Shown here piece after piece: positions 1-6,005 of a stretch of DNA of 8,823 nucleotides (positions within the stretch are counted from its first letter, which is position 1; each line of letters opens with the position of its first letter). The stretch is taken from assembly GCA_030613225.1 (NCBI GenBank), contig JAUWMJ010000093.1, forward strand, positions 1 through 8,823. Direction: 5' to 3'. The DNA comes from Desulfobacterales bacterium (GTDB taxonomy: Bacteria > Desulfobacterota > Desulfobacteria > Desulfobacterales > JAUWMJ01). The notes beneath the pieces were generated by a model, which saw only the letters and a list, made by a program, of their open reading frames with translations, was not told the origin of the DNA and made no database searches. Both the position numbers and the translations under genes were made by a program.

Positions 1-1845
1 CTGCCCATCAGGTTCAGCGTAGCCAAGCTCAACCTCTTTGAAATTGCCTTTGCGCTGTTTAAGAGGCAGTTCAGGCATTTTTGCCCTGGCTGTCCTTGGT
101 GCATCTTTAGGAATCGGGCGATAAACCGGATCATCTTTAACAATCGGTTCGCGACCTTCGACCATATCCTGCCCGTCAATATACCTGACAATAGATTCCG
201 CAGCTTCCTTACCGGCTGCAATTGCACCAATGGCAACCCACGGGCCGGTTTGCACATCTCCTCCGGCAAAAACTCCTTCACGGCCGGTGGCATATGTGAT
301 TGTGTTAACTTCGGTGGTTCCCCATCTGGAAAACTCCAGGTCTGCTATATCTTCTATGGCTGAATGATCGGGTCTCTGGCCGATGGCAGGAATAAGCTGA
401 TCGATTTTTACGTCGTATTCTGTTCCCGGAACCGGAACCGGCTTTCTTCTCCCCGATGAATCGGGTTCAGTAAGTTCCATCCTGATACAACGGAGACCGA
501 CGACCTTACCATCTTCTATCAAGACCTCCTGGGGGGCTGAAAGGTAGGTAATTTTAACACCTTCATCTTCTGCCGCTTGAATCTCTTCCTCCCAGGCGGG
601 CATTTCGGCACGGGACCTACGATAGATAATGCTGACTTCTTTTACCCCCAACCGAACAGCACAACGGGCTACATCAATAGCCACGTTTCCGCCTCCGATG
701 ATGCCAACACTTTCTCCCACCTTGGCTTTGCCGGAAAGATTTACTTCTCTTAAGAAATCAACGCCCTGTCGCACACCATTGGCCTTTTCACCCGGAACTC
801 CAAGCTCGATTCCCACATGAGCACCGATTGCTATGTAAACAGCTTTATAGCCCTGGCTGAACAGATCATCCACAGTCAATTCCGGCCCAAGGGGCGTATT
901 GGTCTTAATTTCTACACCGAGATTTGTCACCACCTCAATATCTTTATCCAGAACCTCTCTTGGCAGTCGGTGCGCAGGAATACCGACTCGCAGCATTCCG
1001 CCTGCTTCGGGCAGGGCTTCAAAAATAGTGGATAAAATTCCCTTTCGAGCCAATTGATAGGCAGCGGAAAGTCCCGCAGGACCTGACCCTATAATTGCAA
1101 CCTTTTCTTTTCTAGTCGGCAGGCATTTTACTTCAATATTCCGGGGGTCAAATTGATCAGCAGCCAGGCGCTTGAGGTCCCGAATAGCAACAGGATCATC
1201 AACTTCACACCTGCGGCAGGCGTCTTCGCAACCATGGGGGCAAATTCTACCAAGGACTCCCGGTAGCGGCAGGTCTTCCATTATAATTTCAAGAGATTCC
1301 TTATATTTCCCTTGCCCTACCATCTGGACATACCCCTGCTCATTCAAACCCGCAGGGCAGGCAAGGCGGCATGGAGCCTTGTCAACCTTTTGTACGGCAA
1401 AGGCTCCTGGAATAGCCTGGGCATATTTTTTATAAATAGCTTTTCTGTTGCCCAAACCCTCGTCGTATTCGCTTGGCAATTCCACAGGACAGACTTCCGT
1501 ACAATCGTTACATGCGGTGCATTTGTCAGGGTCAATATAGCGCGGTGTTTTGTGAAGGGTTATCTGAAAATTTCCAGGTTTTCCTTTAACATCTTTGATT
1601 TTTGATAAGGTGTGCAGTTCAATGTTTAAATGCCGGCCGACCTCGACCAGTATTGGAGAGATAATTCACATTGCACAGTCATTGGTAGGGAATGTCTTGT
1701 CAAGCTGAGCCATTGCCCCACCAATGGACGATGATTTTTCCAGAAGGTGAACATAATACCCTGAATTAGCTAAATCGAGTGCCGATTGCATACCGGCGAT
1801 ACCGCCGCCCACAACAAGTACCGATCCTGTGATTTTTTTGGTCAT
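1..1845 (-). CDS. HdrA-GltD type FAD/iron-sulfur oxidoreductase, selenoprotein, 3' end outside window
   Basis: Start ATG at 1845-1843, with AGGAG ten bases upstream. The frame stays open to the window edge (615 codons) except for one TGA at residue 60. Domains in order: an HdrA-type FAD Rossmann motif GGGIAG (residues 13-18); the HdrA signature [11 protein letters not shown] (50-60), where the usual second Cys is the TGA; a [4Fe-4S] motif C109-x2-C112-x2-C115-x3-C119-P; a GltD/NfnB-like N-terminal cluster region (C159, C163, C202, C206, C210, C213); a second FAD motif GSGPAG (253-258); an NAD(P)-binding GGGNVAID (384-391); RRSRAEMPA (409-417); and a C-terminal FAD-contact region with GGD near 528. 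From family knowledge, such proteins pass electrons between NAD(P)H, flavin and iron-sulfur partners such as Hdr complexes. The partner here is unknown, and the C-terminus and downstream genes are not visible. A cytosolic location is likely, as no signal peptide or membrane segment is seen. The domain order is clear; the exact reaction is not. Confidence 0.9.
1629..1654 (-). promoter_or_regulatory. Candidate bacterial SECIS hairpin
   Basis: Directly downstream of the TGA, CTGGTC (1650-1645) can pair with GGCCGG (1638-1633) as six consecutive pairs, two of them G-U. The apical loop is GAGGTC. An A-C mismatch then separates three further outer pairs (1652-1654 with 1631-1629). The loop begins with G and starts 21 nt after the TGA, which fits the general bacterial SECIS pattern of a short stem-loop, a G in the first two loop bases and a loop 16-37 nt downstream. 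The structure was found by eye and not folded computationally. Confidence 0.68.
1666..1668 (-). other. In-frame TGA read as selenocysteine (residue 60)
   Basis: The codon order is GAC TGT GCA ATG TGA ATT ATC TCT CCA, giving D-C-A-M-U-I-I-S-P. In HdrA proteins the matching motif is DCSMC followed by a hydrophobic stretch, so the TGA falls exactly on a conserved Cys and makes a CxxU redox or ligand pair with C57. Homology continues in the same frame for more than 550 further codons without another stop, which argues against a decayed gene. Sec at this Cys in HdrA is known from methanogens and reported in sulfate reducers. The selenium machinery (selA, selB, selC, selD) is not in this window. 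Confidence 0.87.
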
Positions 1846-1892
1846 CTTAATTAATCTCCTTTGTTAAACCTAAATTAAGATTAAGCTGAATT

Positions 1893-3290: not shown

Positions 3291-3370
3291 CGTTCAGGGG
3301 TTCAGAGGTTCAGGGTACATGGGTTCAGAGGTTCAGGGTTCAGAGGTTCAGGGTTCAAAGGTTCAAAGTT
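3291..3370. repeat. Tandem GTTCAGRG-type repeats, left arm
   Basis: About ten units of 7-8 bp built on GTTCAGGG, TTCAGAG and TTCAAAG follow the miaA stop after 14 bases. One unit is degenerate (TACATGGG at 3315-3322). The run can be translated as an RGSGF-rich peptide, but this is a by-product of the repeat. It is the left arm of a larger inverted arrangement: GGTTCAGGGTTCAGAGGTT at 3330-3348 has an exact reverse complement at 3548-3566. A role in termination between the convergent miaA and alr genes is possible. Confidence 0.8.
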
Positions 3371-3540: not shown

Positions 3541-3583
3541 AACTTCAAACCTCTGAACCCTGAACCTTTGAACCCGTGAACGG
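3541..3583. repeat. GTTCAG repeats in inverse orientation, right arm
   Basis: Plus-strand AACCTCTGAACCCTGAACC (3548-3566) is the exact reverse complement of 3330-3348. It is followed by further GAACC and TTTGAACCC units up to CCGTGAACGG. The arm ends 12 bases beyond the alr stop codon, so it would lie in the alr mRNA 3' end. Paired with the left arm it could form a stem of at least 19 bp. Confidence 0.75.
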
Positions 3584-3595
3584 TTACAAAGATTT

Positions 3596-4738
3596 TCAAA
3601 GATACACTCTCTGCACACGAGCCGATATCCTGGTTACAACCTCATAGTTGATGGTGCCAGTAAGTTCTGCAATCTCATCGGCAGTAATGGATGCGTTGCC
3701 CTGGTGGCCGAAAACGACCACCTCATCTTCGATTTTAACTTCCGGGATGTGCCCTACATCGAGCATTGTAAGATCCATGCAAATACGGCCAATAATGGGC
3801 GCTTTTTGTCCATGTACAAGCATATGGCCGCGAGATGACATCAGGCGACTGAATCCGTCTCCATAACCTACGGGTATTGTGGCAATGGTTGTCGGTTTTT
3901 TTGTTTTATGGGTAATGCCGTAACTGACCATGAAACCGGCAGATACTTTCTTCAGATGAATAATCCTTGCTTTTAAAGACATTACAGGCAGAAGTTTTAT
4001 ACGGTTTTTATCAGTCTCATCAGATGGATAGAGGCCATAAACACTGATGCCCGCCCGTACCATGTCAAGATGGGTTTGTGGCATGTCTATAATCGCACCG
4101 CTGTTGGCTGCGTGCTTTACGCTAAATTGCAAACCGGCTTTGTGAAGCTGGTCTAAAAAACTTGAAAAAATTTGAAACTGTTTTTCGGCATACGACTTGT
4201 CAGACCAGTCTGCTGTAGCAAAATGGGTAAATATTCCTTCAAGTTTAAGACCTGAAAGTCCTGCGATGGATTTAACCTCTTCAACAGCCCTGTCGGCAGG
4301 AGCGGCGCGGCGACTGTCCGGCAGGAGACCGAGTCTCCCCATCCCTGTATCGACTTTAAGATGAATGTTGATTTTTATATTTAAAGAGGATGCTGTGTCG
4401 GAAAGCTCCCGGGCTGTTTCATAGGAATAGACGGTCTGGATCAGGTCAAACTCATAAAGCCTGGCGGCTTCAGATGACGGTGTGTATCCGAAAACCAGGA
4501 CAGGGGCATCTATACCGGCTTGTCTAAGCCGAATTCCCTCGTCAACCCTTGCCACTCCAAGAGCGTCTGCACCGCTTTCCAATGCCTGTCTTGCCACTTC
4601 GATAATGCCGTGGCCGTATGCATTTGCTTTTACGGCAACCATAAGGCGTGCAGAAGGGGCGGTAATACGCCGCAGCTCAAGTACATTATGAGCTATAGCG
4701 TTTAAATCGATTTCAGCCCATGTGAGAGGGGATTCCAA
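3596..4738 (-). CDS. alr: Alanine racemase, PLP-dependent
   Basis: 380 residues, typical for bacterial Alr. It interconverts L- and D-alanine, supplying D-alanine for peptidoglycan. Fold type III PLP barrel: the PLP lysine is K37 in AVKANAYGHG; KVDTGMGRLG (128-137) and FTHFATAD (170-177) are family blocks; HAANSGA (209-215) and RAGISVYG (228-235) follow; the catalytic tyrosine is Y273 in VSYG; PVGYGDGF (289-296) and GRICMDLTM (317-325) close the site. The start is TTG at 4738-4736, chosen because AAGGT lies eight bases upstream and no in-frame ATG or GTG fits; the nearby ATG at codons 6-7 is out of frame. It lies downstream of alanine dehydrogenase on the same strand, 154 bp away with a large hairpin between them. 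All key residues are present, so it is likely functional. Confidence 0.97.
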   Translation of the reverse strand: MESPLTWAEIDLNAIAHNVLELRRITAPSARLMVAVKANAYGHGIIEVARQALESGADALGVARVDEGIRLRQAGIDAPVLVFGYTPSSEAARLYEFDLIQTVYSYETARELSDTASSLNIKINIHLKVDTGMGRLGLLPDSRRAAPADRAVEEVKSIAGLSGLKLEGIFTHFATADWSDKSYAEKQFQIFSSFLDQLHKAGLQFSVKHAANSGAIIDMPQTHLDMVRAGISVYGLYPSDETDKNRIKLLPVMSLKARIIHLKKVSAGFMVSYGITHKTKKPTTIATIPVGYGDGFSRLMSSRGHMLVHGQKAPIIGRICMDLTMLDVGHIPEVKIEDEVVVFGHQGNASITADEIAELTGTINYEVVTRISARVQRVYL

Positions 4739-4778
4739 AGAAATTACCTTATAAACCCAACCCGGATAAACCGAGATT

Positions 4779-4880
4779 AATAAAATTTTTCATCACGAAA
4801 GCACGAAATTACGAAAACACGAAAAAAGAAATTTGTATTTCGTGTTTTCCCTCTTTCGTGTTTTCGTGATTGTTTTTATT
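4779..4880. repeat. Long imperfect hairpin of CACGAAA units between ald and alr
   Basis: TCACGAAAGCACGAAA (4793-4808) pairs with TTTCGTGTTTTCGTGA (4854-4869) over 16 positions with one G-T. Further in, GAAAACACGAAA (4813-4824) pairs perfectly with TTTCGTGTTTTC (4838-4849), leaving a 13-base loop. The outermost AATAAAA/TTTTATT also match. Transcribed from the minus strand (the ald-alr direction) it gives a strong mRNA hairpin 13 bases after the ald stop, without a clean U tract. It could attenuate transcription or protect the ald mRNA end, or be only a dispersed repeat. Confidence 0.82.
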
Positions 4881-4892
4881 ATAATCATCGAA

Positions 4893-6005
4893 CTATAACA
4901 AATCGTCAATGGAAACGCACTCAAGGCCGAATGCATCAGCAACCCCTTTGTAAACCACTTTACCCATGGCAACGTTTACGCCGGGTTTAATTTCAGGATT
5001 TTCTTTTATAGCCTTTTTCCACCCTTTGTTGGCTATTTCAACTGCATAGGGAAGTGTTGCATTAGTCAGCGCGTTTGTGGACGTTTTGGGCACAGCACCC
5101 GGCATGTTCGCTACACAGTAGTGTATTATGCCGTCTACAGTGTAGATCGGGTCTGAATGTGTGGTCGGTTTCGACGTTTCAAAGCACCCGCCTTGATCTA
5201 TGGCAACATCCACGATTACAGTGCCCCTTTTCATGGTTTTCAGCATTTCCTTTGTGATGAGTTTCGGGGCCTTTGCACCGGGAATAAGTACGGCGCCGAT
5301 AACCACGTCGGCTTCTTTAACAAGTTTGCGTGTAGTTGCAGGGCTTGCCATTAAGGGAAAGCAGTTGGCGGGCATTACATCACTCAGGTAGCGCAGGCGA
5401 TCAAGGTTGTAATCGAGGATGTAAACCTTAGCACCTAAGCCGCATGCCATCTTTGCGGCATTGGTTCCGACTACTCCGCCGCCTAAAATGAGAACCGTGC
5501 CCGGACTTACTCCCGGGACGCCGCCTAAAAGAACTCCCCTTCCCCCGTTTATCATTTCAAGGTACTTTGCTCCTTGCTGAATCGCCATGCGACCTGCCAC
5601 TTCGCTCATCGGTGTTAGCAGAGGCAGGGAGCCGTCTTCTTTCTGAATGGTTTCATATGCAATATTGATGCTTTTGCTCTTGATGAGAGCCTTGGTCAGT
5701 TTTTCCGCCGCTGCAAGGTGAAGATAGGTAAATACAATCTGGTTTTCCCTGATAAGCTCATATTCCGACGGCAGGGGTTCTTTGACATGCATAACCATAT
5801 CAGCACGGTTATAGATTTCTGCCGGTGTATCGACTATCTCGGCCCCGCTTTTAAGATATGCGCTGTCTTGATATCCGCTGCCTATGCCGGCGTTTTTTTC
5901 CACTAAAACAGTGTGCCCGTTTTGTCTCATGACTTCCGCTCCGGCAGGGGTCATGGAAACACGGTTTTCCTCAGCCTTGATTTCTTTCAGAATGCCTATA
6001 ATCAT
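4893..6005 (-). CDS. ald: Alanine dehydrogenase (NAD-dependent)
   Basis: 370 residues, the normal size. It interconverts L-alanine plus NAD+ and water with pyruvate, ammonium and NADH in the cytosol. The N-terminus MIIGILKEIKAEENRVSMTP is the family signature. Pyruvate-binding and catalytic residues are visible: R15, K75 in VKEP, H96 in TYLH, and D270 in VDVAIDQGG. The NAD Rossmann motif is GGGVVG (175-180), with acidic D198 at the end of the next strand, consistent with NAD rather than NADP. MPGAVPKTST near the C-terminus is also typical. ATG start with GAGG seven bases upstream. The gene begins 27 bp after the thiolase stop, so co-transcription is likely. Downstream lie the CACGAAA hairpin and alr, a second alanine enzyme. 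Confidence 0.97.
   Translation of the reverse strand: MIIGILKEIKAEENRVSMTPAGAEVMRQNGHTVLVEKNAGIGSGYQDSAYLKSGAEIVDTPAEIYNRADMVMHVKEPLPSEYELIRENQIVFTYLHLAAAEKLTKALIKSKSINIAYETIQKEDGSLPLLTPMSEVAGRMAIQQGAKYLEMINGGRGVLLGGVPGVSPGTVLILGGGVVGTNAAKMACGLGAKVYILDYNLDRLRYLSDVMPANCFPLMASPATTRKLVKEADVVIGAVLIPGAKAPKLITKEMLKTMKRGTVIVDVAIDQGGCFETSKPTTHSDPIYTVDGIIHYCVANMPGAVPKTSTNALTNATLPYAVEIANKGWKKAIKENPEIKPGVNVAMGKVVYKGVADAFGLECVSIDDLL

Follow-up and report, generated by a model that had tools for sequence, protein, structure and literature searches.

HdrL was described in 2009 from Desulfobacterium autotrophicum HRM2 as a fusion of heterodisulfide reductase and glutamate synthase, with selenocysteine (Sec) in HdrL1 and HdrL3 and with mvhD adjoining (PMC2702500), so the kind of protein considered here is already known. 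An HdrL-like HdrA is also said to occur in Desulfurivibrio dismutans (PMC12142623). Sec-containing HdrA proteins have been reported from methanogens and Deltaproteobacteria, and both a UGA codon and a SECIS element were described for hdrA of Desulfococcus multivorans (PMC1794560, PMC5109826). Archaeal HdrA proteins bearing a GltD module are classed as type III, and Sec was noted to make gene callers miss HdrA (PMC12054007, 2025). In the HdrA dimer, the N-terminal cluster of one protomer is ligated by Cys197 of its partner, and where HdrAs occur in tandem or fused, the N-terminal domain belongs to one copy and Cys197 to the other (PMC9012536). We take Cys197 to follow the numbering of 5odc, since 5odc_A carries a Cys at 197; the source of the HdrA structure is given as M. 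wolfeii in PMC9012536 and as M. thermolithotrophicus in PMC5861303.

We analysed a window of 8,823 nucleotides, the whole stretch of DNA at hand, which very probably carries hdrL as a selenoprotein gene of a Desulfobacterales-type sulfate reducer. The gene matches HdrL as described from D. autotrophicum; that paper held HdrL to be unique to HRM2 (PMC2702500), whereas here the best 80 relatives, none of them from the D. autotrophicum genome, were kept of 283 found. As in the type III HdrA of methane-metabolizing archaea, for which pyridine-nucleotide use has been proposed, the GltD module is inserted at the ferredoxin domain of HdrA. The type III pattern, the GltD insert aside, is said to be most like a single type I HdrA, in contrast to the double HdrA found here, and the motif stressed for type III is GXGXXG, whereas the second GltD Rossmann motif of the window protein is GGGNVA, a GXGXXA form, so that under the rule quoted in the same paper NADPH may be preferred over NADH (PMC12054007). 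The Sec HdrA proteins of methanogens and Deltaproteobacteria share Sec at the CxxC position but, unlike the present fusion, are encoded in operons of the hdrA-frhD-frhG-frhA type or next to a stand-alone gene for a pyridine nucleotide oxidoreductase (PMC1794560, PMC5109826). The fused HdrA pairs of ANME (HdrA 3/4) and Moorella thermoacetica share the division of Cys197 and the N-terminal domain between complementary halves; the ANME fusions place the half with the N-terminal domain ahead of the other, the reverse of the order seen here, where Sec occupies the Cys197 position (PMC9012536).

An open reading frame interrupted by a single TGA

From an ATG at 1845, the minus strand is open to base 1 as a single frame of 615 codons, including one TGA and no in-frame TAA or TAG, while the other two minus-strand frames of this region are broken by 22 and 47 stops. 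The TGA, at 1668-1666, is codon 60 and lies within TNDCAM-TGA-II, exactly where a preliminary description of this DNA had placed it. If it is not read through, the longest ORF is one of 495 codons from a GTG at 1485 (residue 121), so N-terminal residues 1-120 are lost to a standard reading, in agreement with the earlier claim that no stop-free ORF covers this part of the gene. The 615-codon frame with one TGA thus stands as first described, but the gene is not confined to 1..1845: it runs off base 1 and its stop codon lies outside the window. Only about 40% of hdrL is visible, since complete relatives have a median of 1478 residues. The features of the locus are collected in Table 1.

Table 1 Features of the hdrL locus in the window
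Feature	Position	Strand	Basis
hdrL, N-terminal 615 codons (continues past base 1)	1..1845	-	Open frame; Pfam/NCBIfam HdrA and GltD-type matches; complete relatives
TGA read as selenocysteine, codon 60	1666..1668	-	71 loci with TGA and 9 with Cys (n = 80); aligns with 5odc_A Cys197
AAAGGAG, likely ribosome-binding site of hdrL	1856..1862	-	Seen directly in the sequence; ten bases upstream of the ATG
Bacterial SECIS hairpin (5′ arm 1650-1644, loop AGGU 1643-1640, 3′ arm 1639-1633)	1633..1650	-	Fold; no synonymous change at six codons among the 72 Sec genes
Ferredoxin-type CxxCxxCxxxC, residues 109-119, of the domain inserted in HdrA	1489..1521	-	Pfam Fer4; alignment to 5odc_A
GltD-type module, residues about 153-559, with Fe-S, FAD and NAD(P) sites	169..1389	-	PF14691, PF07992; PDB matches

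Selenocysteine and cysteine at codon 60 among relatives

Relatives were collected by a scan of genome contigs, and the best 80 of the 283 loci found, with records titled Desulfonema, Desulfosarcina, Desulfobacula and others, were kept; the cultured Desulfonema magnum and Desulfosarcina widdelii are represented among them. The N-terminal motif is present in all 80, and the column of codon 60 holds TGA in 71 and TGC or TGT (Cys) in nine. This is the count of Cys versus Sec around residue 60 that the preliminary description had proposed, and it bears out the placement of the TGA on the second Cys of the HdrA CxxC motif. Reading of the TGA as Sec is strongly supported by this column and by the hairpin described below; the nine Cys loci indicate that selenium is not essential to the family. 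The highest identity to the window protein among the loci compared is 79%, in L005.

Among the best 120 of 7945 homologous proteins, the motif is present in 49, all with Cys, and is missing from the other 71, many of which begin just downstream of it, some being contig fragments. These N-terminally short proteins confirm the expectation that standard gene calling misses or splits the gene.

In a quick tree of 81 sequences, with the Sec column masked and the root set by midpoint only, the distribution of Sec and Cys requires at least three changes, compared to a mean of 8.7 under shuffling, where none of 500 replicates was as low as three. Desulfosarcina widdelii carries two hdrL copies, L024 with Sec and L028 with Cys, which are sisters with a support of 100. 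Because L028 is sister to L024 and retains six of the seven hairpin pairs, a recent change from Sec to Cys following duplication is suggested for this copy.

A conserved hairpin downstream of the UGA

The hairpin downstream of the UGA has a stem of 7 bp and a loop of 4 nt (AGGU) with G at the second position, lies 22 nt from UGA to loop and has a predicted energy of -10.2 kcal/mol. It falls within all of the limits published for bacterial SECIS elements, namely a loop of 3-9 nt with G in the first two places, a stem of 4-16 bp, a distance of 16-37 nt from the UGA and an MFE of at most -7.5 (PMC13188914, a 2026 review). The window's 51 nt are matched in folding by 38 of 200 shuffled sequences (z -0.89) and, the folding energy alone being not unusual, the case for the hairpin rests on conservation. 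The Sec gene set for this comparison consisted of the window and the 71 TGA loci (n = 72), and a codon column was considered testable when at least 65 of the 72 genes shared one amino acid having several codons. Just six of the 138 testable columns, whose median entropy is 1.53 bits, show no synonymous change, and these are exactly the six contiguous codons of the hairpin; the search patterns that found the loci do not overlap them. The sequence CTGGTCGAGGTCGGCCGG is present in 65 of the 72 Sec genes, and the other seven are the same except that GTTC replaces GGTC in the loop region. All nine Cys genes differ from the Sec sequence at the hairpin and keep three to six of the seven pairs. Covariation is absent because the stem is invariant among Sec genes, and the hairpin is not an Rfam hit, as no Rfam family attains the gathering threshold anywhere in the window.

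Selenocysteine genes in the genomes of relatives

For 26 of the 80 loci (20 with Sec, 6 with Cys), the corresponding genomes were searched for genes of Sec synthesis and insertion, as were 14 control genomes. Curated cut-offs alone were used, since a plain E-value threshold lets selB, selC and selD match in all 14 controls as well. Over these cut-offs, selA is present in 25 of the 26 genomes (19/20 Sec, 6/6 Cys), selB in 21 (17/20 and 4/6), selC in 17 (13/20 and 4/6) and selD in 23 (18/20 and 5/6), compared to one, two, five and two of the 14 controls, respectively. Some of the selC misses may be false because at most 108 candidates were scored per genome. In G001, a possibly incomplete MAG with the closest-type Sec locus L001, selD is the only one of the four over cut-off, selA, selB and selC all falling short. 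The selD gene is itself a selenoprotein gene in these relatives, with one internal TGA in each match over cut-off (23 of the 26 genomes, G001-G026).

Domain architecture of HdrL

When the TGA is translated, solved structures of HdrA are matched by residues 5-159 (for the N-terminal piece, 5odc_A at E 6e-54). The GltD-type module, at residues about 153-559, is recognized by Pfam Fer4_20 and Pyr_redox_2 and, in the PDB, by NfnA, NfnI and the small chains of glutamate synthase. The window sequence therefore holds the fusion of HdrA with a GltD module by which HdrL is recognized. NCBIfam matches were obtained for 125 families and, as none of the 25 matches listed exceeds its curated cut-off, no NCBI model names the protein outright.

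The 62 relatives that reach a stop codon (55 Sec, 7 Cys) are 1474-1491 residues long, counted from 59 residues ahead of the Sec/Cys column. In L002, the residues past the GltD module align to residues 287-495 of 5odc_A and are followed by a second HdrA. The alignment of this second HdrA begins at residue 2 of 5odc_A, in the N-terminal domain, and covers the FAD domain; the inserted ferredoxin domain is missing, and a C-terminal ferredoxin closes the protein. A further HdrA part is present in all 62 complete relatives, and its N-terminal motif was found in 56 of them with a first search pattern and in all 62 with a looser one; in the window protein, this region falls past base 1. The complete relatives are thus predicted HdrA-GltD-HdrA proteins, with two HdrA halves in one chain. 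The identity of HdrA-GltD oxidoreductase proposed in the preliminary description was right for the two parts matched, but the protein is larger than that name implies.

A probable role for residue 60

Residue 60 aligns without gaps to Cys197 of 5odc_A and to a residue X in 9sfi_A, which is probably Sec; a literature search found no paper naming 9SFI. The visible sequence starts at the equivalent of 5odc residue 142, so the first half is without the HdrA N-terminal domain. In this half, the Cys197 position is taken by Sec or Cys, and the GltD module is set into the ferredoxin domain. The N-terminal cluster domain belongs to the second half, where its four Cys are kept in all 62 complete relatives, and the 40-residue stretch of this half that matches the Cys197 region contains a Cys or Sec in none of the 62; in L002, a Lys aligns with Cys197. 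The complementarity of the Cys197 position and the N-terminal domain between the two halves is therefore seen in 62 of 62 complete relatives. This arrangement, together with the alignment to Cys197, suggests that Sec60 probably ligates a cluster of its own chain and is not part of a CxxU redox pair. We consider it fairly probable, from the alignments, that Sec60 supplies, through its selenolate, the fourth ligand to the N-terminal [4Fe-4S] cluster of the second half, such that the chain would form its own HdrA pseudo-dimer and selenium would tune the cluster. For the broader proposal, that a single-chain, selenolate-ligated [4Fe-4S] cluster formed through Sec60 lets selenium tune a bifurcating enzyme driven by pyridine nucleotides, we put the chances slightly above even.

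Alternatively, Sec60 could pair with Cys57 as a redox-active CxxU site close to the FAD, in the manner of thioredoxin-reductase-like enzymes, with selenium speeding thiol/disulfide chemistry. The motif is indeed CxxU, the domain has been termed thioredoxin-reductase-like (PMC9012536) and Sec HdrA is listed as CxxU in a review table (PMC13188914). Such a pair would also explain why Cys57 is kept in all 72 Sec genes and all nine Cys genes, which ligation by Sec60 alone does not. Against it stand the alignment of residue 60 with Cys197, described as a cluster ligand (PMC9012536), and the complementary loss in the second half of all 62 complete relatives, and we regard the CxxU pair as rather unlikely. 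The functional CxxU flavoprotein of the preliminary description accordingly holds as far as Sec at the CxxC position is concerned, given the column, the hairpin and the sel genes of relatives, while for the redox pair we favor the ligand role instead. The accessible text of PMC6019823, PMC7596348, PMC2933860 and PMC5861303 contains nothing on a ligand role, and no literature tying the Sec of HdrL to Cys197 was found in searches that were not designed to prove absence and that covered few subscription journals.

Other readings of the TGA

The standard code reads TGA as a stop, and the gene could be a pseudogene, or the codon a sequencing error. The same TGA, however, is present in 71 of 80 independent records (best 80 of 283), and third codon positions account for most of the differences from relatives both before and after it, with a share of 0.71 before the TGA, 0.52 over residues 61-124 and 0.68 over residues 125-219; the comparison used a gap-free alignment, which dilutes the middle figure. 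With the TGA/Cys column and the hairpin both conserved, a real stop is highly improbable and was rejected. Organism-wide reassignment of TGA, for example to Trp, is more improbable still and was also rejected, since alr in the same window ends at an ordinary TGA with complete Pfam domains, the 615 codons contain just one in-frame TGA, homologues have Cys and not Trp, and no support for reassignment was found.

Genes and repeats around hdrL

An mvhD gene lies downstream of hdrL in 58 of the 61 loci with at least 600 bases behind the gene, a further 19 loci being too short; no match was found there in L002, L004 and L040. In the window locus, the position of this HdrL feature falls past base 1. 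The CxxC-type residue of MvhD is U in 15, C in 30 and without a call in 13 of the 58 loci. The 15 loci with U have a downstream MvhD with an in-frame TGA of its own (VSGUHPGECHY type), as in L019 at about 10190-10654.

The rest of the window encodes miaA, alr, an alanine dehydrogenase, a thiolase, a DUF6812 protein and the start of a type II/IV secretion ATPase. L019 is the only one of the 80 loci that matches other window proteins tested, and its miaA (4053-4952) is divergent from hdrL, as in the window. Between hdrL and miaA lies a palindromic element (1921-2119) with outer arms at 1921-1960 and 2080-2119 (80% complementary) and inner arms at 1968-2016 and 2023-2071 (73% complementary), which looks like a small inverted-repeat (MITE-like) element; its end pattern was found in none of 84 loci. 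Tandem repeats of GTTCAGAGGTTCAGG follow miaA, with an inverted counterpart before the end of alr (3292-3365 and 3548-3581), and the exact 14-mer GGTTCAGAGGTTCA is present in one of 84 loci, L011.

Proposed mechanism and significance

In the mechanism that we propose, SelB would deliver Sec-tRNA to the UGA at codon 60. In the protein, NAD(P)H would give or take electrons at the GltD module, and the FAD or FADs of HdrA would split or merge electron pairs between ferredoxin and a further acceptor. MvhD would connect HdrL to a partner enzyme, and Sec60 may tune a cluster on the electron path between ferredoxin and this MvhD-linked partner.

In protein databases, HdrL-type genes are truncated at the UGA, so that in a major group of sediment sulfate reducers the N-terminal HdrA part and the selenium are easily missed. 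If Sec60 is a cluster ligand, these genes would offer many natural Sec/Cys pairs in which to measure how selenium affects a [4Fe-4S] cluster involved in flavin-based bifurcation. If ligation within a single chain is true, the Sec and Cys copies L024 and L028, present in one genome, would form a natural pair in which to measure what selenium does to the cluster.
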